This document shows, piece by piece, positions 4,368 to 15,848 of a DNA stretch of 49,110 nucleotides. The DNA comes from Lachnospiraceae bacterium (GTDB taxonomy: Bacteria; Bacillota; Clostridia; Lachnospirales; Lachnospiraceae). The position numbers and the translations under genes were made by a program. The notes under the pieces are model-generated. The model had not been told where the DNA came from, searched no databases, and saw only the letters and a list, made by a program, of their open reading frames with translations. The stretch's first letter is position 1, and every line of letters starts with the position of its first letter. The stretch covers positions 1 through 49,110 of the forward strand of contig JAHAYJ010000106.1 in assembly GCA_018384375.1 (NCBI GenBank). Reading direction: 5' to 3'.

Positions 4368-4856
4368 ATGGAGACAATTACACTTCGCAGATTTCAAAAA
4401 GATGATGAATATGCTATTTCGGATGTGATCTGCACAACCCTCGCAATCAGCAATCAAAAAGATTATTCGCCTGCGTTTATTGAGGAAAACATCAGAAGCC
4501 ATTCCCCGGAGGTGATTGCGCAAAGAGCAAAGGATGCCCACTTTTATGTGGCAATGGACGGGGAAACGATAATCGGCTGTGGTGGTATCACCGGATATTG
4601 GGGTAGCACAGAGGAAAGCTATCTGACCTCTATCTTTGTTTTGCCGGACTATCAGGGAAAAGGCGTGGGCAGGAAGATTGTTGAAGCTCTGGAAGCAGAT
4701 GAATACTTCCACCGGGCATGGCGCACCGAGGTCGGCTCCTCCCTGACCGCAGTATCGTTCTATAGAAAAATGGGCTATGAATTCAAAAATGAGATTACGA
4801 CTCCCGATGAATACGGCACTGTAAGACTGGAAAAACGAAGGGTGGTTTCAAAATGA
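4368..4856 (+). CDS. GNAT-family N-acetyltransferase
   Basis: 162-residue single-domain GNAT. Motif A is well preserved (SIFVLPDYQGKGVGRKIVEALE, the acetyl-CoA pyrophosphate loop Q-x-x-G-x-G), preceded by the GETIIGCGGI strand and followed by the SLTAVSFYRKMGYEF motif B region. The acceptor substrate cannot be told from sequence. It begins 28 bp after the TetR gene and overlaps the next gene by ATGA, indicating co-transcription and translational coupling with the hydrolase. Confidence 0.9.
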   Translation: METITLRRFQKDDEYAISDVICTTLAISNQKDYSPAFIEENIRSHSPEVIAQRAKDAHFYVAMDGETIIGCGGITGYWGSTEESYLTSIFVLPDYQGKGVGRKIVEALEADEYFHRAWRTEVGSSLTAVSFYRKMGYEFKNEITTPDEYGTVRLEKRRVVSK

Positions 4857-5887
4857 AGAAAACTATGTTAATTATAATTATTATTTTGGTAATCATTGTG
4901 CTTCTTATTGTGGTGGGAAAGAGAATTCTTTTTCCACGATACAATGAAATAGAAGTCACAGGCAAATATGAGATCGGCTGTGAAGATTATTGGGTGACAG
5001 AGGATAAGGAGGATCCGTTTTTAAAGGATGGAAGCCAAAGAGAGGTACAGGTTCGTGCCTGGTATCCAAAAGATTATGATAATCCGGATACAAAATTACC
5101 TGTAGTGGTAGTTTCCCATGGTTCCTGTGGAACCATAGACAATAATCGGAGCTTATACAGAGAATTTGCCAGTCATGGATATGTTGTTCTGGCTGTCAGT
5201 CATCCGGGGCATGCTTTTGATACCCTCCATTCGAATGGGAAAAAGCAAAAGGTCAGTATGGATTACATGAAGGAAATGGGTGGGATGGATCCGCAGAAGA
5301 AACCGGAGGAAGCTGCAAAATTATTTGCTGAATGGATGGAACTGAGAATGACTGATCTTTCAGTAGTTATGGATGATTTTGTGGAGAAATCGATGCAGGC
5401 TCCTGACAGATTTGAAAGTGCAGATACAAGTCGTTTTGTCACGCTTGGACATTCTGCGGGTGGTTCGGCTGCTTTGGGAATGGCACGTATCAGAGCGGAT
5501 GTAGTCGGAGTCATTGCCCTAGAGTCCCCTTGCATGTATGACATCAAAGGTGCAGCGGATGGTGAATATATCATGGATGATTCGGATTATGAGGTTCCGG
5601 TTCTCAATGTTTATTCCGATGCAAGTTATTCCCATTTATATGAGTGGAAGCAATATCGGAATAATGTAAAATTTCTTGAAAGTGAAAAAGAAAATTATGA
5701 GAATATCTATTACGAAGGAGTCGGTCATATGGGATTATGCGATTTATCGCTTGCATCCCCGATTCTGGCAGGTATGCTTGACCAGACGAAGAGCAAGGGT
5801 AAGCCAAGAGAACAGCTGAAAAGATTAAATACAGACTGTTTGGATTTTTTGCAGAAGTTATCATTAAGTAAGGAATCGGAATTTTAA
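4853..5887 (+). CDS. Membrane-anchored alpha/beta hydrolase, PAF-acetylhydrolase-like
   Basis: 344 residues. An N-terminal hydrophobic segment (about residues 4-22) anchors it with the catalytic domain probably outside the membrane. The alpha/beta-hydrolase elements are visible: a VVVSHGSCG oxyanion region, the nucleophile elbow GHSAGG (Ser about 201), an Asp in YSDAS (about 256) and a His in EGVGHMG (about 292). The arrangement resembles platelet-activating-factor acetylhydrolase isoform II and related esterases. It overlaps the GNAT gene by 4 bp and is followed closely by a phosphatidyltransferase, which hints at lipid or ester chemistry; the true substrate is unknown. Confidence 0.85.
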   Translation: MKKTMLIIIIILVIIVLLIVVGKRILFPRYNEIEVTGKYEIGCEDYWVTEDKEDPFLKDGSQREVQVRAWYPKDYDNPDTKLPVVVVSHGSCGTIDNNRSLYREFASHGYVVLAVSHPGHAFDTLHSNGKKQKVSMDYMKEMGGMDPQKKPEEAAKLFAEWMELRMTDLSVVMDDFVEKSMQAPDRFESADTSRFVTLGHSAGGSAALGMARIRADVVGVIALESPCMYDIKGAADGEYIMDDSDYEVPVLNVYSDASYSHLYEWKQYRNNVKFLESEKENYENIYYEGVGHMGLCDLSLASPILAGMLDQTKSKGKPREQLKRLNTDCLDFLQKLSLSKESEF

Positions 5888-5891
5888 GGAG

Positions 5892-6473
5892 ATGGTGACA
5901 ATAGTTATGAAGTCTAAGACATTAAGAAGGAAACAACATAAATGGAACGCGGCGGATACAGTGACATCCATGCGGATGGTTGCCACTCTTTTCCTGATTT
6001 TTGTTCCACTGAGATCTATTTGGTTTCTTGCTATTTATACTTTCGCCGGCTTGACGGATGTATTAGACGGCTGGCTTGCCAGAAGATCCGAAAAGGCAAG
6101 TGAGTTCGGCGCAAGACTGGACAGTATTTCTGACTTGTTGTTTTACAGTGTCTTGCTGATTCGTCTTTTTCCGGTTTTGTATCAGACCCTTCCGGGTAAG
6201 ATCTGGTATGCCGTAGCGGGAATTGTACTCGTGCGTCTCGCGGCGTATGCCACAGCAGCAGTCAAATATCATCGTTTTGCGTCACTACATACATGGTTGA
6301 ACAAGTTAACCGGTGTGGCAGTATTCCTGTTGCCCTATGCTCTTTTGACTTCATCAAGTGTTGTGTATAGCTGGGCAGTATGTATCCTGGCATTTACAGC
6401 ATCAATGGAGGAACTGGCAATCTATCTTTTACGGGCAGACTACCTTGCGGATAGGAAATCACTATTTCAATAA
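5892..6473 (+). CDS. CDP-alcohol phosphatidyltransferase family protein
   Basis: Integral membrane enzyme of the family that makes phosphatidylglycerol-phosphate, cardiolipin and related lipids from CDP-diacylglycerol. It has the complete signature D-x2-DG-x2-AR-x8-G-x3-D-x3-D (from DVLDGWLAR through GARLDSISD). Several hydrophobic helices follow. At 188-193 residues it is PgsA-sized, but the acceptor alcohol cannot be assigned and this may be a second copy rather than the housekeeping PgsA. The start is uncertain: the AAGGAG lies directly before ATG 5892, so GTG 5895 or ATG 5907 may be used. Confidence 0.88.
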   Translation: MVTIVMKSKTLRRKQHKWNAADTVTSMRMVATLFLIFVPLRSIWFLAIYTFAGLTDVLDGWLARRSEKASEFGARLDSISDLLFYSVLLIRLFPVLYQTLPGKIWYAVAGIVLVRLAAYATAAVKYHRFASLHTWLNKLTGVAVFLLPYALLTSSSVVYSWAVCILAFTASMEELAIYLLRADYLADRKSLFQ

Positions 6474-8189: not shown

Positions 8190-8225
8190 ATTTTTAATAT
8201 TTAGAGAATGACAGGGAGAAGCATT

Positions 8226-10952
8226 ATGTACGAGCAGGAAAGACAGCGGGCAGCCCATCTTTTAATATTGCTTTGTTACACGATATTAACAATCGTCTTG
8301 ACCGGAGAATCGCTTCTCCTTGGTTGGGAAACAGAGGCCATTGTGTTACTTCTGTTGGGAGTTGTGGTCTGCTGGACTGTTCATTTTACAGAAAAATTTC
8401 CTGTGGATATCAGTGTCTGGATATATTTTATCTTAACTATGCTGGCGTTTTTCTTTTATGGAATTCATGAGACCAGTATCTATGATATGGCACCTGTTAT
8501 GATGGTGATCATCCTGATCTATTCCACAACGGAAATGTATAGTATTATCAGACTCTGTGTAGTTGTCTATTTCTTTACCATGACTTATGACCTGTTCTTT
8601 GTCATGGGAAAATCCATGGAACTCACCCCGCTTTCCATTACGAGAACACTCCTTCACTTTTTGCTTGTCTACATGGCAGGCTGGTTGATGAAGGTTGTGA
8701 TGCAGAGGCGCAGACAGGAGAGAAAGAATAACGACAGCAGGATTGCCGGGCTTGAAGAGACAAACCGTCGAACAGAGGATTTCCTCACGAATGTTTCTCA
8801 TGAACTTCGTACCCCGATCAATGCTGTTACGGGAATCTCAGCAGTTATGCTGAAAAGGGAAGAGGATGCAGAAAAAAGGAAAGAAATTGCTTCAATTCAG
8901 GAAGCCGGGCACAGACTGTTCAGCCAGATTGAGGATATTTTGGATTATACGGAAATCGATACCGGAAAGATGAAGGTCAGCAAGGAGCCTTACGTGCTTT
9001 CGTCTCTTTTGAATGACATCATCACCGGAAGTCAAATGTTGACAGAAGAGAATGCTCCGGAAGTGATTTTTGATGTTGATGCAAAGATCCCCTCTGCACT
9101 TGTGGGAGATGCAAGAAAAATCAAAAAAATTTTAAGGCATCTGATTGACAATGCAGTCAGGTTTACCAAAAAGGGTGGAGTCTATGTCAGAGTTTATACA
9201 CTGACTAAGCCTTACGGTGTTAATCTGTGTATGGAAGTGAGTGATACCGGCATCGGAATTGAGAAGGAGGATCTGGAAAAGATCACAGAAAAATTCTTTA
9301 AATCAGATGGAGGGAAAAACCGAAGAACAGGAGGCCTTGGATTAGGTCTTCCAATCGTATATGGCATGGTTACGGTGATGGAAGGCTTTATGCAGGTAGA
9401 TAGTAACCTGAATGACGGAACAACCGTCACGGTCAGTATTCCACAGGCGGTAGCGGATGCCGCACCCGGTATGGTGTTGGAAAATCGTGCATCTTTAAGC
9501 CTGGCATGCTATGTGAGACCCGAAAAATATGAAATTCCCAAGGTGAGAGAATACTATAATGAGATGATTTCCCATTTGGTTACGGGACTGGATGTACCAC
9601 TACACCGGGTCTCCGATTTGGAGGAACTTAAGAAACTGGTTTCCGTATACCGGCTGACACATTTGTTTGTGGGGAGAGAGGAGTATGAGGAAAGCAGGCA
9701 GTTTTTAGATAGTCTGGATCAGGATGTTGAGATCATTGTTGTGGCAGATGAGCGTTTTGCATTGCCTGATAATGGCAGAGTGAAATTGCTTAATAAGCCA
9801 TTCTATAGTTTTATGATCGCCAGTGTGCTGAATGCAGAAGCGTCAGGTGATACAGAAATACTGAAAGAAAAGCGTATGCTCTGTCCGGGTGTAAAGGTGC
9901 TTGTCGTGGATGATGAGCCGATGAACCGGCGTGTGGCAGAGGAGATTTTCAAAGGGTATCAGATGCAGGTACAGACAGCGGAAAGTGGCACAATGGCAAT
10001 TGATCTATGCAAAAGGGAAGATTTTGACTTGGTTTTTCTGGATCATATGATGCCGGAAATGGACGGAATAGAAACCCTGAAGCGTCTCCGCAAAATACAT
10101 ACGGATTCCGGTCGCGGACTTACCGTTATCGCCTTTACGGCGAATGCTGTCAGCGGTGCCAGGGAAATGTTCCTGAAGGAGGGCTTTGATGAGTTCGTTT
10201 CCAAACCGATTGAGTATTCGGAAATGGAGCATGTCCTGAGAAAGGTATTACCCAAGTCGGCGATTATCTGGGTGGATGAAAACATTGAAAATATTGAAAA
10301 AGGGGATAAAAATTTCGAGAAGGACTCCCGACATGAAGTGGTGCAGATCAATACGAAGTCTGCACTTGCCTATTGCAAGAACGACATGAATTTTTATCAG
10401 GAACTGCTACATAAATTTGTTGTGGATGCAGACAAAAAGAAAAGTGAAATAGATCATTATTTTAAACGGGAGGATTATGATAACTACCGGATTGTGATTC
10501 ATGCACTGAAGAGTACGGCAAAAATGATAGGAGCAGATGCGCTTTCGGAGCTTGCACAGGAATTGGAAGCTGCCGTACAAAATAAGGATATCGGATATGT
10601 CCGGGAGCATCATGAGGAAATGCTTTTGGAGTATTCTAGGGTGGTCGACCGGATATCGGAAACACTGGATGACAAGAAAAATGACACTGACAAACCCATT
10701 GCAAAGAATGAGGCAGAAATATCAGGTGATGAGCTGCTTGAAAGGCTCACGGAATTGAAGGAGGGACTTGCGGCATTTGAAATCGATAAGTCGGAAGCGG
10801 TGATCTCAGAAATGAGTGAGACCGTATATATGGGGAAAGACGTCGGGGAATTCCTTCGTGAAGTTCGTAAAGATGTGGAGGATTATGAATTTCGCGAGGC
10901 AAAAAGGAAGGTAGAAAAGCTGCTTGACAGGGTGAAAGGCGGTGAAATGTGA
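8226..10952 (+). CDS. Hybrid sensor histidine kinase with receiver and HPt domains
   Basis: About 908 residues. About six N-terminal membrane helices, without a large extracellular domain, form the sensor. Then come HisKA with VSHELRTPIN (His about 192), HATPase with DTGIGI and GGLGLGLPIV (about 368), a pseudo-receiver segment (about 420-550, retaining only the LNKPF element), a full receiver with LVVDDE and FLDHMMPEMDG (Asp about 606), and an HPt domain with HALKS (His about 759). About 100 further helical residues follow. GGGAG is spaced correctly for ATG 8226 rather than the upstream ATG 8208. It is a complete His-Asp-His phosphorelay and overlaps the next kinase gene by TGATG. Confidence 0.92.
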   Translation: MYEQERQRAAHLLILLCYTILTIVLTGESLLLGWETEAIVLLLLGVVVCWTVHFTEKFPVDISVWIYFILTMLAFFFYGIHETSIYDMAPVMMVIILIYSTTEMYSIIRLCVVVYFFTMTYDLFFVMGKSMELTPLSITRTLLHFLLVYMAGWLMKVVMQRRRQERKNNDSRIAGLEETNRRTEDFLTNVSHELRTPINAVTGISAVMLKREEDAEKRKEIASIQEAGHRLFSQIEDILDYTEIDTGKMKVSKEPYVLSSLLNDIITGSQMLTEENAPEVIFDVDAKIPSALVGDARKIKKILRHLIDNAVRFTKKGGVYVRVYTLTKPYGVNLCMEVSDTGIGIEKEDLEKITEKFFKSDGGKNRRTGGLGLGLPIVYGMVTVMEGFMQVDSNLNDGTTVTVSIPQAVADAAPGMVLENRASLSLACYVRPEKYEIPKVREYYNEMISHLVTGLDVPLHRVSDLEELKKLVSVYRLTHLFVGREEYEESRQFLDSLDQDVEIIVVADERFALPDNGRVKLLNKPFYSFMIASVLNAEASGDTEILKEKRMLCPGVKVLVVDDEPMNRRVAEEIFKGYQMQVQTAESGTMAIDLCKREDFDLVFLDHMMPEMDGIETLKRLRKIHTDSGRGLTVIAFTANAVSGAREMFLKEGFDEFVSKPIEYSEMEHVLRKVLPKSAIIWVDENIENIEKGDKNFEKDSRHEVVQINTKSALAYCKNDMNFYQELLHKFVVDADKKKSEIDHYFKREDYDNYRIVIHALKSTAKMIGADALSELAQELEAAVQNKDIGYVREHHEEMLLEYSRVVDRISETLDDKKNDTDKPIAKNEAEISGDELLERLTELKEGLAAFEIDKSEAVISEMSETVYMGKDVGEFLREVRKDVEDYEFREAKRKVEKLLDRVKGGEM

Positions 10953-13621
10953 TGGATCTGAAGAAATTAATTCGGAAAATCAGAAATCCCAATCTGAGTC
11001 TGCAGGAGCGGTTGTTTCGCCTGATCATGATGATCGGATTAATGGGGCTTGCGGTCGGAATCATCGTCGGAATTATTGCCAGGGAGGATATCATCAATAC
11101 AGTCATTTTGTTGATAGCCTTTGCGGGTTTCGCCGGTATTACTTATTTTTCCATCCGTTATCACCGGACACAGATTGGAGCAGTCATTACGGCTATTATT
11201 TTGATATATCTGGTGCTGCCAATCAATTTTTTGACAACCGGAGGAATTTACGGTGGTGGACCGATCTGGTTTTTATTTGGAATCGTTTATGTGTGTCTTG
11301 TTGTGGAAAAAAAGATGAAATATATACTGCTGATCAGCAGTTATCTTTTGTTTTCAATATGCTATTATGTTGCGTATTCATACCCGGAAATCATCATTCA
11401 ACACACCACACAGGCAGCATATGTGGATTCTATTATGACGCTGGTCGTTGTGTCAATGCTGACCTGTGGCATGATCGTGTTTCAGAATGCGTTATACCGT
11501 ACGGAAAACGCAACTGTTCGGAAGCAGAAGAAAGAAATTGAGGAATTGAGCGAAGCTCAGAATCGTTTCTTTTCCAGCATGAGCCATGAGATTCGAACCC
11601 CTATCAATACGATTATCGGTTTGAACGAAATGATTCTTCGGGAGGATGTATCGGACGAAGTGGCGGCGGATGCCAGAAGTATTCAGGGTGCAAGCAAGAT
11701 GCTTCTTACACTGATTAATGATATTCTCGATATGTCAAAACTGGAATCCGGGAAAATGGATATCGTACCTGTAACCTATGATGTGGGAGCCATGTTATCG
11801 GATATTGTCAATATGATTTGGGTTCGTGCCAAGGAAAAGGGGCTGGAATTTCATATTGATGTGGATCAATCCATGCCCTCACAGCTGATTGGCGATGAGG
11901 TGCGGATCAAGCAGATTTTGATCAATGTTCTGAACAATGCTGTGAAGTACACAACAGAAGGCTCCGTTACCTTATCGATCCAATGCAAAAGGATAGAAAA
12001 CAATCATGTTTTGACTTCCTATTCCGTAATCGATACCGGAATCGGAATTAAGAAGGAGAGTATTCCGCTTCTTTTCAGTGCATTCAAAAGAGTTGACGAA
12101 GAGAGGAACCGCTATATCGAGGGAACCGGTCTGGGACTTTCCATTGTAAAGAATCTGGTGGAGCTAATGGGCGGTGACATTGCGGTCAACAGCGTTTATA
12201 CGAAAGGCTCGACATTCGTAATTACTCTGCCTCAGAAGATCGTGGGAGAAGAAAAGATTGGCGAGCTTAATCTGGAAACGCGTCACAATATTAATGAACG
12301 TGAGCATTACAGACAAAGCTTCGAAGCACCCAAAGCCTCGGTATTGATTGTTGATGATAATGACACGAATCTTATGGTCGCACAAAAGCTTCTACGGGAT
12401 ATAAAGGTGAAAATAGATGCCGTTACGAGCGGCATGGAATGTTTGATGAAAACACTCCAAAATCGCTATGATGTTATTTTTATGGATCATTTTATGCCGG
12501 GTATGGACGGAATTGAATGTCTGCATGCGGTACGTTCACAGACCGGCGGTTTGAATCAGAGCACACCGGTGGTAATTCTCACAGCGAATGCAGGCGCAGA
12601 AAACCAGGCTCTTTACAGAAGAGAAGGATTTGACGGGTATTTACTGAAACCGGTCAGTGGCACACAACTGGAAGAAGAGCTTTTGAGACATCTGCCCTAT
12701 CAGCTTGTCAATCGTTTGAATGCTACAGGGACTGCCGGTATGGTCGAAGCGCCGGTTCTTGCACACAAGAAGAAGCTTCCCATTCTGATCACTACGGAAA
12801 GTGTGTGCGATCTTCCGAAAAATCTTCTGCAGAAGTATCAAATTGCAGTCATTCCCTATCGGGTCAAAACGGAAGGCGGAGAATTCCTGGATGGAATAGA
12901 GACACAGACGGACGGCGTTCTTTCCTACATAGAAGAAAGAGGCAAACAGGCATGGTCGGAAGAACCTGAGGTGAAGGAATATGAAGACTTTTTTGCGGAG
13001 CAACTGACCAGGGCACAATATATTGTTCATATTTCAATGGCCCAGAATGTCAGCAAAGGCTATGAGCATGCAATGGAGGCTTCTAAAATATTTGATAATG
13101 TAAGGGTGGTTGATTCCGGACATTTATCCAGTGGAATGGGACTTATGGCTATGTATGCAACAAGGCTTGTGAATGATGGCATGACAGCAGATGCCATTGT
13201 AAAGGAGCTGGAGCATTTGAAGAAAAATGTCAGCACCAGCTTTATTGTGGACAGCACAGAGCATCTGGCACGGGTCGGCAGAATCCCGTCCAAAATGGAT
13301 AGAATCTGTCGGGCATTGATGCTTCATCCGGTAATCACCCTGAAAAACAGCAGCCTGAAGGTGAAAACGCTCCGTATTGGAACACGGAGCCACACTTGGA
13401 AGAGATATATCGCAGCGACACTGGGCAATGATAACGATATTGATAAAAGGATCCTGTTTATTACCTATGCAGGCCTGACGGTGGAAGAGTTGAGGGAAAT
13501 CGAGGAACAGGTCAAAAGTAAAGTGCATTTTGAGTATGTCTTTTATCAAAAGGCGTCTCCTGCCATCTCAGTAAACTGCGGACAGGGCAGCTTTGGCTTG
13601 TTGTTTATGCGTAAATACTGA
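10952..13621 (+). CDS. Hybrid histidine kinase fused to a C-terminal DegV domain
   Basis: About 889 residues. It comprises an N-terminal block of membrane helices, a coiled linker, HisKA with MSHEIRTPIN (His about 212), HATPase (DTGIGI, EGTGLGLSIV), a receiver (LIVDDND, FMDHFMPGMDG, Asp about 512), and finally a DegV/EDD fold from about residue 610 to the end. The DegV part shows ITTESVCDLP, VVDSGHLSSGMGL, HLARVGRIPS and the closing GSFGLLF. DegV proteins (FakB type) bind fatty acids for phosphorylation by FakA; the usual TSQPS loop is altered here to around AWSEEP. The ATG overlaps the stop of the previous kinase. A role as lipid-responsive output or input is inferred. Confidence 0.9.
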   Translation: MDLKKLIRKIRNPNLSLQERLFRLIMMIGLMGLAVGIIVGIIAREDIINTVILLIAFAGFAGITYFSIRYHRTQIGAVITAIILIYLVLPINFLTTGGIYGGGPIWFLFGIVYVCLVVEKKMKYILLISSYLLFSICYYVAYSYPEIIIQHTTQAAYVDSIMTLVVVSMLTCGMIVFQNALYRTENATVRKQKKEIEELSEAQNRFFSSMSHEIRTPINTIIGLNEMILREDVSDEVAADARSIQGASKMLLTLINDILDMSKLESGKMDIVPVTYDVGAMLSDIVNMIWVRAKEKGLEFHIDVDQSMPSQLIGDEVRIKQILINVLNNAVKYTTEGSVTLSIQCKRIENNHVLTSYSVIDTGIGIKKESIPLLFSAFKRVDEERNRYIEGTGLGLSIVKNLVELMGGDIAVNSVYTKGSTFVITLPQKIVGEEKIGELNLETRHNINEREHYRQSFEAPKASVLIVDDNDTNLMVAQKLLRDIKVKIDAVTSGMECLMKTLQNRYDVIFMDHFMPGMDGIECLHAVRSQTGGLNQSTPVVILTANAGAENQALYRREGFDGYLLKPVSGTQLEEELLRHLPYQLVNRLNATGTAGMVEAPVLAHKKKLPILITTESVCDLPKNLLQKYQIAVIPYRVKTEGGEFLDGIETQTDGVLSYIEERGKQAWSEEPEVKEYEDFFAEQLTRAQYIVHISMAQNVSKGYEHAMEASKIFDNVRVVDSGHLSSGMGLMAMYATRLVNDGMTADAIVKELEHLKKNVSTSFIVDSTEHLARVGRIPSKMDRICRALMLHPVITLKNSSLKVKTLRIGTRSHTWKRYIAATLGNDNDIDKRILFITYAGLTVEELREIEEQVKSKVHFEYVFYQKASPAISVNCGQGSFGLLFMRKY

Positions 13622-13650: not shown

Positions 13651-14457
13651 ATGAAAAAATGGTCTACGAAGTACAGCATGCTGTTGATGACAGCGATGTT
13701 GATGCTGACAGGTTGTGCGCACGGTAAGAAAGATACGGCTCCCGGGATAAATCCGGGTCAGTCGGATTTGGAATATGTGCAGGAAAAGGGAACCCTTATT
13801 GTTGGCGTCACGGATTATGCACCTATGGATTACCGCAGCGGAGAGGCCTGGACAGGCTTTGATGCGGAATTGGCCAATGCATTTGCGGAAAGCATCGATG
13901 TCACTCTGCAATTGAAGGAAATTGACTGGGATAAGAAGACAGAGCTTCTTGAAGAAGGAAGCATTGATTGCATCTGGAATGGGATGACCATGTCACAGGA
14001 GCTTCAGGAGAGTATTTCCTGCTCAGAACCATATCTCTCCAATGCACAGGTTGTGGTGCAAAGAGGTAATGAAAAAGAACAATATTCTACGATAGAATCC
14101 TGCCAACATATGTTGTTTGCTGTTGAGGCAGGTTCTATGGGGGAATCCCTTCTGGGAAAAAGAAAATATCGTTATTCAAATTACTCGACCCAGATGGAAG
14201 CAATTCGGGCTGTTCAGGTAAAAAAGGCTGATGCGGCTGTGGTGGATCTGATCATGGCGGCGTATTATACAGGTGACGGGCAGGAATTTGAAGATCTAAA
14301 GTTTAACATTTTTTTGAATGATGAAAAGATCTGTGTCGGACTCCGCAGGGATTCTGATCTGACAGAGAAAGTGAATGCATTCCTTAAGGATGCTAATGAA
14401 AACGGAATGATGCGCTCCCTGGCAGAAAAATATGGAATTGAGAACGCGGTTCTGTAA
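13651..14457 (+). CDS. Extracellular solute-binding (SBP family 3) lipoprotein
   Basis: 268 residues. A signal peptide ends in LTGC (lipidated Cys22). The mature part has the type-3 periplasmic-binding-protein pattern: YVQEKGTLIVGVTDYAPMDY, GFDAELANAFAE, the IWNGMTMSQELQESISCSEPYL hinge region, and a final LAEKYGI. Relatives bind amino acids. No transporter permease or ATPase accompanies it. It sits between two hybrid kinases and a receiver-GGDEF gene, 30 bp from each neighbour, so it may serve as an extracellular ligand sensor for the kinases rather than feed a transporter (inference). Confidence 0.88.
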   Translation: MKKWSTKYSMLLMTAMLMLTGCAHGKKDTAPGINPGQSDLEYVQEKGTLIVGVTDYAPMDYRSGEAWTGFDAELANAFAESIDVTLQLKEIDWDKKTELLEEGSIDCIWNGMTMSQELQESISCSEPYLSNAQVVVQRGNEKEQYSTIESCQHMLFAVEAGSMGESLLGKRKYRYSNYSTQMEAIRAVQVKKADAAVVDLIMAAYYTGDGQEFEDLKFNIFLNDEKICVGLRRDSDLTEKVNAFLKDANENGMMRSLAEKYGIENAVL

Positions 14458-14486: not shown

Positions 14487-15848
14487 ATGAAAAGCATTTT
14501 AGTGATCGATGATGACAAGGTGAATCTTGCTACTGCGAGAATGGTTTTACGAGACGAATACAAGGTGATCCCTGTCACAAGTGGCGCACAGGCGCTGATT
14601 TTTCTTGAGAAGAACGATTGCGATATCATTCTTCTTGATATTAACATGCCGGAAATGAACGGATTTGAGACGCTGAGAAAAATTCGTGAAATGCAACATT
14701 GTCAACATATTCCTGTGATCTTTCTTACGGCAGACAATGACGCGGAAACAGAGACACGCTGCTTTAAGGAAGGAGCAATTGATTTTATTGTAAAACCCTT
14801 TGTCTCTGAGGTAATGCGATCACGGATAGGCAGAGTGCTGGAACTTGAGGAACTTCGGCGAGGGCTGGCGGATCGGCTGGAGCAAAAGACCCGTGAGGCC
14901 TCAGACATGAAAAGTAAATCCTGTCAGGATGCACTGACCGGATTATGGAACAGGACATATACAGAAGAAGCGGTTAATGGACTGCTTTCCCAGGGAGCTC
15001 CGGGTGTACTGCTGATGATCGATATGGATAACTTTAAGGTGATCAATGACAGCTACGGACATATTGCAGGAGACCGTACCTTGAGAATGCTTGCTGATAT
15101 CTTGCGGAGTGTTTTCAATGAGGGTGACATTCTGTGCCGTATCGGCGGAGATGAATTCATGGTTTTTGCCAGAGATATTACTGAAAGAAGTGAAATCAGT
15201 AATCGGGCTTCCCGTATCATTTCCGAGTTGACCAATAAGCTTGAAAAGTGTGATTTTAAAACCAATACTTCTGTGTCGATCGGCATTGCCAAGGCTCCGG
15301 AGAATGGAACGGAGTTCCTCAAGCTTTATAATTCTGCAGACAAAGCACTTTATTATGTAAAACAGAACGGAAAAAATTCCTATCATTTCTTTAGTGATAA
15401 GCTTCAGACGGAAAACAGCCGCGGAGAAAAAAATGTTGATCTGGGTTATCTTCAAGACCTTATGAACCGCACAGACAATGGCGGGGGAGCCTATTCTCTT
15501 GATTTTGAAAGCTTTCACCATGTTTACAATTTTATTCGCAGGTTTGTTGAGCGCAGCCGGAGGGATGTCCAGACATTGCTCTTTACTGTAGTTGAGAACG
15601 ACAGTCAGGAGCCGGATGTTGCGGAAACGGAGCTGGCATTGGAGCTTCTTGAAAAGGCTATCTATACTTCACTGCGAAGATCCGATGTATCTACAAGATA
15701 TTCCAGCAAACAGCTGATAGTCATTCTGATGGATGCAAACGGTGAAAACGGTGATATGGTGGCAGGACGTATTCTGGAAAGCTTTAACAAGCTCTATACG
15801 AATGGAAAGGTGCAGATAGAGTATGGGATTGCCCGCATGGACGGTTGA
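14487..15848 (+). CDS. Response regulator diguanylate cyclase (REC-GGDEF plus degenerate second GGDEF)
   Basis: 453 residues. An N-terminal receiver (VIDDDKVN, phospho-Asp about 51 in LLDINMPEMNG, FLTAD, VKPF) precedes a GGDEF domain with an intact CRIGGDEF active site (about 220-224), predicted to make c-di-GMP. The RxxD inhibitory site normally five residues upstream reads NEGD, so product inhibition is probably lost. The last 120 residues look like a second, inactive GGDEF fold: SLRRSDVSTRYSSKQLIVIL aligns with the active-site strand but has SSKQL. It is the last gene of the kinase operon and its likely phosphorylation target. Confidence 0.9.
   Translation: MKSILVIDDDKVNLATARMVLRDEYKVIPVTSGAQALIFLEKNDCDIILLDINMPEMNGFETLRKIREMQHCQHIPVIFLTADNDAETETRCFKEGAIDFIVKPFVSEVMRSRIGRVLELEELRRGLADRLEQKTREASDMKSKSCQDALTGLWNRTYTEEAVNGLLSQGAPGVLLMIDMDNFKVINDSYGHIAGDRTLRMLADILRSVFNEGDILCRIGGDEFMVFARDITERSEISNRASRIISELTNKLEKCDFKTNTSVSIGIAKAPENGTEFLKLYNSADKALYYVKQNGKNSYHFFSDKLQTENSRGEKNVDLGYLQDLMNRTDNGGGAYSLDFESFHHVYNFIRRFVERSRRDVQTLLFTVVENDSQEPDVAETELALELLEKAIYTSLRRSDVSTRYSSKQLIVILMDANGENGDMVAGRILESFNKLYTNGKVQIEYGIARMDG

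Follow-up and report, generated by a model that had tools for sequence, protein, structure and literature searches.

Positions 10952 to 13621 of a 49,110-nucleotide stretch of Lachnospiraceae DNA (contig JAHAYJ010000106.1 of assembly GCA_018384375.1; the whole stretch is referred to as the window) encode a hybrid histidine kinase that ends in a complete domain of the DegV (FakB) family, and the gene directly upstream encodes a second hybrid kinase that carries the single histidine phosphotransfer (Hpt) domain of the pair. The reading proposed here, to which a probability of about 0.45 is assigned, is that the two kinases would form a phosphorelay with one Hpt and a cyclic di-GMP (c-di-GMP) output, in which the DegV domain would be uncoupled from the fatty-acid kinase FakA and would act as a regulatory, probably ligand-sensing module. 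The fusion had been noticed in a first-pass annotation of the window made from the sequence alone; added to that picture are the loss of features for FakA and membrane docking, the single-Hpt partner kinase, and the neighbouring c-di-GMP enzymes. The kinase gene and its parts are as follows.

10952..13621, forward strand: hybrid kinase with histidine kinase (HK), receiver (REC) and DegV parts (HK-REC-DegV), 889 aa, from the open reading frame (ORF), Pfam and NCBIfam; its ATG overlaps the upstream TGA
11000..11491, forward strand: membrane sensor region of six long helices, from the helix list of the full-length model and hydrophobic by eye
11555..11752, forward strand: HisKA domain with phospho-acceptor His212 (Pfam, residues 202-267; H212 in 45/45 alignment rows)
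11891..12238, forward strand: HATPase_c domain (Pfam, residues 314-429; N/G-box residues in 45/45 rows)
12341..12679, forward strand: receiver domain with phospho-acceptor Asp512 (Pfam Response_reg, residues 464-576)
12719..12769, forward strand: disordered linker from REC to DegV, residues about 590-606 (pLDDT <50 in both models)
12782..13612, forward strand: DegV/EDD domain, residues 611-887 (Pfam, NCBIfam, PDB sequence search and fold search)

The ORF is intact, running from the ATG at 10952 to a stop codon that ends at 13621 with no internal stop, and its start codon shares one base with the TGA stop codon of the kinase gene before it (TGATG). The order of membrane helices, HisKA, HATPase, receiver and DegV given in the first-pass annotation was confirmed by Pfam and by the structural models, which place a disordered linker before the complete DegV/EDD domain. 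HisKA, HATPase_c, Response_reg and DegV were each matched over the Pfam cut-off; the DegV match (PF02645, residues 611-887) scored 150.4 bits against a cut-off of 27 (E 8.2e-44), and NCBIfam DegV model TIGR00762 scored 162.4 bits against a cut-off of 99.7. The sensor helices of the full-length model comprise residues 17-42, 47-69, 73-95, 103-117, 121-143, and 153 onward, and no Pfam domain over cut-off was found in this region. The residues that define a hybrid histidine kinase are in place: all 14 positions checked, namely the HisKA histidine, N325, N329, D361, G363, G365, G391, G393, and G395 of the HATPase_c N and G boxes, and D468, D469, D512, T544, and K566 of the receiver, were invariant in 45/45 rows. 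Over these rows, mean identity was 0.54 in DegV versus 0.40 in the membrane sensor, for loci that were chosen by DegV similarity, and 0.25 in the linker (residues 588-608).

An AlphaFold2 model of the REC-DegV part had a mean pLDDT of 88.4 and a pTM of 0.66, and the full-length model had a pTM of 0.40; confidence was very high in the DegV domain, confident in REC, and lower in the kinase core, with the linker disordered. When the REC-DegV model was compared with the PDB using Foldseek, the first 45 rows were all DegV/FakB structures with target-normalised TM-scores of 0.78-0.88, including Bacillus subtilis DegV, Staphylococcus aureus FakB1, and the FakA-bound FakB2 of Streptococcus suis, and a PDB sequence search returned the same families (best E 3.3e-26). 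The earlier claim of a complete DegV fold, for which structure prediction had been proposed as the check, was upheld by these matches. By profile and fold the 889-aa protein is a DegV protein, and by its catalytic residues it is a hybrid histidine kinase.

Co-linear matches from the kinase to the end of DegV were found in at least 44 of the 299 sampled genomes of the window's family (its own genome included), with identities of 36-69% in the other genomes. This count was made by eye from matches that start at or before residue 193 and end at or after residue 885, with three candidates scored per genome so that it is a lower bound, and it excludes a match that starts at residue 384 (genome G163) and a split gene (genome G274). 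A peptide-pattern scan of named genomes yielded 521 DegV-domain relatives, and 80 of them were retained; REC and DegV lay in one frame in 80/80, and the kinase shared that frame in 79/80. According to their titles, 62 of the 80 loci belong to Lachnospiraceae, which bears out the recurrence of the domain order in this family, and 76 to Bacillota, with one each from Chloroflexota, Bacteroidota, and Spirochaetota and one unranked; the odd phylum labels may be wrong, as these are metagenome bins. One cassette (L099), on a contig of 12.5 kb, comes from a bin labelled Candidatus Avitreponema (a spirochaete), through either transfer or mis-binning.

Independent fusions in other families were considered and rejected: among the matches listed for 398 phylum-wide genomes, for which about four candidates per genome were scored, REC-DegV occurred only in G000, G261, and G180, all members of the window's family, which supplied five of the 398 genomes. 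The remaining matches listed were DegV-only or REC-only by range, with the REC match in G474 extending to residue 204. A sequencing error at the junction, which the first-pass annotation had named as something that could undo the fusion, is ruled out by the single frame in 80/80 named-genome loci. More generally, that an assembly or frame artefact joins two separate genes is as good as dismissed: although one relative (L160:4178-6860) has HK-REC and DegV in two overlapping frames, the single frame of REC-DegV in all 80 named-genome loci and the conserved clade stand against it. The L160 arrangement may itself be a natural split or an assembly error. Another relative (L161:4130-5935) has HK-REC with 48% identity over residues 6-595 and stops before the DegV position; there was no DegV match in the 10 kb around this kinase, which marks it as a DegV-less version. 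The first-pass annotation knew of no characterised example, and in the portions of the open-licence literature covered, where DegV was paired with kinase, receiver, response regulator, c-di-GMP, or Lachnospiraceae, no fusion of DegV to a kinase was described.

The gene immediately upstream is the second component of the proposed relay.

8208..10952, forward strand: partner hybrid kinase HK-REC-Hpt, 914 aa (Pfam HisKA, HATPase_c, Response_reg, and Hpt)

The Hpt domain of the partner was matched by Pfam at residues 732-809 with 37.7 bits against a cut-off of 24.6. An HK-REC gene lies directly upstream of the DegV kinase on the same strand in 72 of the 75 loci with at least 900 nt of upstream sequence; the best match of these 72 genes was the partner in 70 cases and the DegV kinase in 2, and the three misses (L071, L079, and L086) are shortened DegV-kinase frames. 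The inferred start was at -4 or -1 in 42 of the 72 (23 and 19, respectively). An Hpt profile was built here, with both types of kinase in this set as its seeds, and was run over all pairs; 88 pairs were obtained from 104 rows after removal of 16 that lacked a partner, had a DegV partner, or had a partner frame shorter than 600 aa. Exactly one Hpt was found in 87/88 adjacent pairs, on the partner only in 78 and on the DegV kinase only in 9, with none on both; in the one pair with neither (L109), a third kinase of the same locus carries the Hpt. The nine Hpt-less partners have consistent frame lengths of 677-719 aa.

The kinases that carry the Hpt themselves have the order HK-REC-DegV-Hpt, so that DegV sits between REC and Hpt, and Pfam Hpt was matched over cut-off in 3/3 of those scanned. 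Ten such extended kinases (L163-L172, of which L028, L031, and L035 are shorter cuts of three; eight of the loci were chosen for long frames) form one clade with support of 100/99 among 60 rows. In the nine with a partner examined, the partner has no Hpt, meaning that the Hpt has changed place between adjacent genes, and since the extended kinases form one clade, one relocation suffices. One Hpt per pair is the pattern that would be expected of two kinases sharing one Hpt, and the switch of the Hpt between partners is evidence from nature that the two neighbouring hybrid kinases act as a single relay. Two loci (L056 and L116) depart from the simple pair: a single Hpt kinase is followed by two consecutive DegV kinases and then by further kinases. 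After its Hpt, the partner has an acidic tail of about 70-80 residues (residues about 830-914) that by eye resembles the tail behind the Hpt at the C-termini of L028, L031, and L035, and no Pfam domain was found in these tails.

The pairing of an Hpt-less hybrid kinase with an Hpt kinase is a feature of multikinase relays, and on present evidence the DegV kinase would work like the Hpt-less partner of such a relay. In the GacS-LadS and RcsC-PvrS systems of Pseudomonas, an Hpt-less hybrid kinase works with an unorthodox HK-REC-Hpt kinase, as in the pair described here, and LadS/GacS and PvrS/RcsC provide a REC-to-Hpt route between hybrid kinases; RocR, a c-di-GMP phosphodiesterase, is among the regulators of the Roc kinases (PMC5812489, available excerpt). 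Unlike those relays, the genes here are adjacent and often overlapping, one clade has the Hpt on the opposite partner, the Hpt-less kinase bears DegV, and phosphotransfer between the partners is putative.

Residues of the DegV domain were compared with those of FakB1 after 110 fused domains had been aligned with 34 free-standing DegV domains in MAFFT, with FakB1 positions transferred via the PDB alignment; positions 121, 158, and 177-186 were carried over from it by hand counting. The fused set consisted of 30 domains from the family genome search (L008-L037; L007, a copy of L008, was dropped) and the 80 from the peptide-pattern scan, and contained 103 distinct sequences at 99.9% identity and 97 at 95%. 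The free-standing set consisted of the six from the window's genome and 28 best-scoring loci from a genus-level sample. The roles of FakB1 residues were drawn from the parts of PMC8892158 and PMC9136124 that were available, in which Arg205 is key for FakA and membrane binding and Arg173 is required for catalysis.

12956..12958, forward strand: Ser669 at the position of FakB1 Thr62, hydroxyl kept; Ser/Thr in 107/110 fused and 34/34 free-standing domains
13121..13123, forward strand: His724 at FakB1 position 120; His in 98/110 fused and 0/34 free-standing domains, Asn in 12/12 sister proteins (described below)
13280..13282, forward strand: Arg777 at the position of FakB1 Arg173; Arg in 92/110 fused and 34/34 free-standing domains
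13376..13378, forward strand: Ile809 at the position of FakB1 Arg205, which is lost; Arg in 1/110 fused domains and 12/12 sisters
13574..13576, forward strand: Asn875 at the position of FakB1 His270, which is replaced; Asn in 105 and His in 2 of 110 fused domains, His in 12/12 sisters

The carboxylate network of FakB1 (Thr62, Ser95, Ser171, and His270) reads Ser, Ser, Val, and Asn in the 889-aa kinase. Of these positions, Ser95 is retained as Ser in 95/110 fused and 31/34 free-standing domains, Ser171 defines little (Gly in 31/34 free-standing DegVs), and His270 is His in 33/34 free-standing domains; after de-duplication at 95% identity, Asn still occupied position 270 in 92/97 fused domains. 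The adjacent Cys876 is present in 101/110 fused domains. At position 205, where the kinase has Ile809 in place of the Arg for FakA and membrane binding, the 34 free-standing domains have Arg (30), Lys (2), or Ile (2), and the Arg173 needed for catalysis is kept as Arg777. The hydrophobic membrane-inserting segment of FakB is absent from the fused domains; in the ten positions corresponding to FakB1 177-186, a mean of 2.03 charged residues was counted in the 110 fused domains versus 0.44 in the 34 free-standing ones.

The first-pass annotation had proposed that the TSQPS ligand loop is replaced by AWSEEP and that the ligand may differ. The replaced loop was located at residues 667-672, and a reading in which the TSQPS loop is lost altogether was rejected, because its key hydroxyl remains as S669 (Ser/Thr in 107/110 fused domains). 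A head-group site that differs from that of FakB was borne out, with the stronger changes outside the loop (His270 to N875 and Arg205 to I809). An alignment shift at Arg205 was also rejected: the adjacent residue 808 is Arg in 37/110, and shifting by one residue rescues no conserved Arg. Hpt-like phosphotransfer by the DegV domain through the FakB histidine was rejected, that residue being Asn in 105/110; the other conserved histidines of the fused DegV domains are 693, 724, and 792.

Judged on these residues, the DegV kinase lacks features that a functional FakB has. The alternative of a standard FakB attached to a kinase and loading fatty acid for FakA would agree with membership of the DegV family, with the Arg173 kept in the 889-aa kinase, and with the presence of FakA in the genome. 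It is nevertheless very improbable, given that the reported key FakA-binding residue Arg205 is Arg in 1/110 fused domains, the carboxylate histidine is gone in 108/110, and six free-standing DegV genes are available in the genome for that work. One FakA is encoded in the genome (a second weak match overlaps a DegV gene), and with it and the six free-standing DegV genes, fatty-acid activation is covered without the DegV kinase.

When 84 sequences were placed in a tree, all 42 fused domains sampled fell on one side of a branch with support of 100/100, and by midpoint root this clade adjoins 12 free-standing proteins, one of them from the window's genome. In these sisters, Arg205, Arg173, and His270 are present in 12/12. 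Because the fused clade has one origin, the counts given above show retention of new states and not many separate losses. His693, Cys876, and Leu at FakB1 position 121 were rejected as marks of the fusion, as they are common to most sister proteins (9, 12, and 11 of 12, respectively); the marks that remain for the fused clade are the charged segment, for which the sisters were compared by eye only, and the substitutions at positions 205, 270, and 724. Docking residues that are kept in the free-standing sisters and lost in the fused domains give a clean before-and-after contrast.

Changes of this kind could also be expected if DegV no longer bound a ligand and were instead a spacer or a module for protein-protein contacts on which the two kinases or the Hpt would dock: the replacement of His270 by Asn, the loss of Arg205, and charges where FakB is hydrophobic would suit a new protein interface, and the fused clade conserves many residues that are seldom seen in the free-standing domains, some of them being common to the sister proteins. 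The head-group residues are held, however (Ser/Thr62 in 107/110, Asn875 in 105/110, Cys876 in 101/110, and Ser95 in 95/110), and this docking role is regarded as unlikely, though it carries some weight.

Downstream of the DegV kinase, two further genes of the window complete the cassette.

13651..14457, forward strand: SBP_bac_3 solute-binding protein (SBP3), likely a lipoprotein (Pfam; lipobox-like N-terminus by eye)
14487..15848, forward strand: REC-GGDEF diguanylate cyclase, candidate output (Pfam REC 4-114, GGDEF 147-297)

The order in the window is HK-REC-Hpt, HK-REC-DegV, SBP3, REC-GGDEF, and pyrE. The REC-GGDEF protein has about 150 residues after GGDEF and two Pfam GGDEF stretches, and a second, degenerate cyclase domain is possible. 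Among the 64 related loci that extend far enough upstream, 46 have a gene for an HD or GGDEF protein immediately before the kinase pair: HD with REC in 36, GGDEF with HD and REC in 5, HD in 3, and GGDEF with REC in 2. The gene at this position encodes REC alone in 11 and none of these in 7. Four of the HD proteins were scanned by Pfam and all matched HD_5, and the one checked for the HD-GYP signature contains HHERYDGKGYP. Downstream of the pair (75 loci), the gene encodes SBP3 in 23, REC in 4, GGDEF-REC in 1, and other proteins in 47. In one locus (L101:2246-4624), a single protein with GGDEF, HD, and two REC stretches, that is, with domains for both making and breaking c-di-GMP, is directly upstream of the kinase pair.

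In the proposed mechanism, the partner (8208..10952) and the DegV kinase would each autophosphorylate on histidine and transfer the phosphoryl group to their own REC; both would share the one Hpt, where the phosphoryl groups would meet, and the Hpt would pass them to the REC-bearing c-di-GMP enzymes encoded alongside, here REC-GGDEF. The DegV domain would be a FakB-type fold recruited for regulation, without the FakA-docking and membrane-dipping residues; its most likely role is to bind a small cytosolic ligand, acyl or other, and ligand-bound DegV would alter phosphoryl flow through the adjacent REC. We infer a regulatory ligand site because the head-group residues are held, the fold that forms the pocket is complete, and the features for metabolic docking are gone.

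The reverse direction, in which DegV is the output and phosphorylation of REC gates a lipid store, allowing the kinase to buffer or release cytosolic fatty acid, is rather unlikely. The domain does stand directly after REC, the usual place of an output domain, with a complete fold and with Ser/Thr62, Ser95, and Arg173 mostly retained. However, separate candidate outputs (REC-GGDEF and REC-HD) are encoded beside the pair in many loci, the position of DegV between REC and Hpt in one clade leaves a phosphoryl route past DegV, and the loss of the features for FakA docking and membrane insertion removes the known routes of fatty-acid delivery. Control of the relay by a ligand is favoured by the candidate outputs encoded nearby and, in one clade, by the location of DegV ahead of the Hpt.

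Several observations weigh against this ligand-controlled relay. The head-group histidine is gone, and because two members of the carboxylate network, His270 and Ser171, differ in the 889-aa kinase, the pocket may bind nothing; one extended kinase (L035) retains Arg at position 205. The orientation of REC and DegV is uncertain at the pTM values given above (0.66 and 0.40). The fusion is patchy, with DegV in a frame of about 890 aa in 3/9 sampled genomes of the window's genus. Among 108 Hpt-profile frames, 87 have the exact H-[AST]-[LF]-K-S motif and 21 are without it, and the relocation of the Hpt is one event in one clade, so that 9/88 can be read neither as a frequency nor as nine separate cases. 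The gene upstream of the pair encodes none of REC, HD, or GGDEF in 7/64 loci, the downstream gene encodes neither SBP3 nor a REC protein in 47/75, and in 18/64 loci of more than 12 kb there was no GGDEF or HD match on the pair's strand.

A more specific version, considered improbable, is that DegV would be a cytosolic receptor for the acyl-carboxylate or acyl-phosphate pool, with which the relay would read membrane-lipid supply and set c-di-GMP. In its boldest form, an acyl phosphate under Arg777 would swap its phosphoryl group with the REC aspartate, which is conceivable because both are acyl phosphates, and lipid metabolism would become a phosphodonor or acceptor of the relay.

Compared with the FakB/DegV family (PF02645 and TIGR00762; S. 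aureus FakB1 and B. subtilis DegV), the domain of the kinase shares the complete fold, and Ser/Thr62, Ser95, and mostly Arg173 are common to the fused domains. Unlike family members, the fused domain is the C-terminal part of a membrane histidine kinase, with His270 replaced by Asn, Arg205 lost, and a charged 177-186 segment. To our knowledge, no DegV domain is part of the SaeRS kinase of S. aureus, and FakB4 of Streptococcus pyogenes, which is not part of a kinase, is presumably free-standing. Signalling through the SaeRS kinase depends on the fatty-acid pool of the cell (PMC5539427, as excerpted), as is proposed here. The difference is that free fatty acid is a negative regulator there. FakB4 is a DegV protein described as having no major role in exogenous fatty-acid incorporation (PMC10138225, in the passages available).

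In this system, the fold of a lipid carrier would have become part of a histidine kinase and been retained, with a patchy distribution, in a large bacterial family. If the DegV domain senses lipid, membrane-lipid supply would be linked to c-di-GMP in Clostridia, and the isolated domain of 280 residues would provide a handle on roles of extra DegV proteins besides feeding FakA.

In a scan of the window that was not used as evidence, 22 promoter-like sites were counted versus 16.1 expected and 13 terminator-like sites versus 5.9 expected. Upstream of the cassette, at 4853-6473, the window encodes a PAF-acetylhydrolase-like esterase and a CDP-alcohol phosphatidyltransferase, for which a lipid connection is possible.

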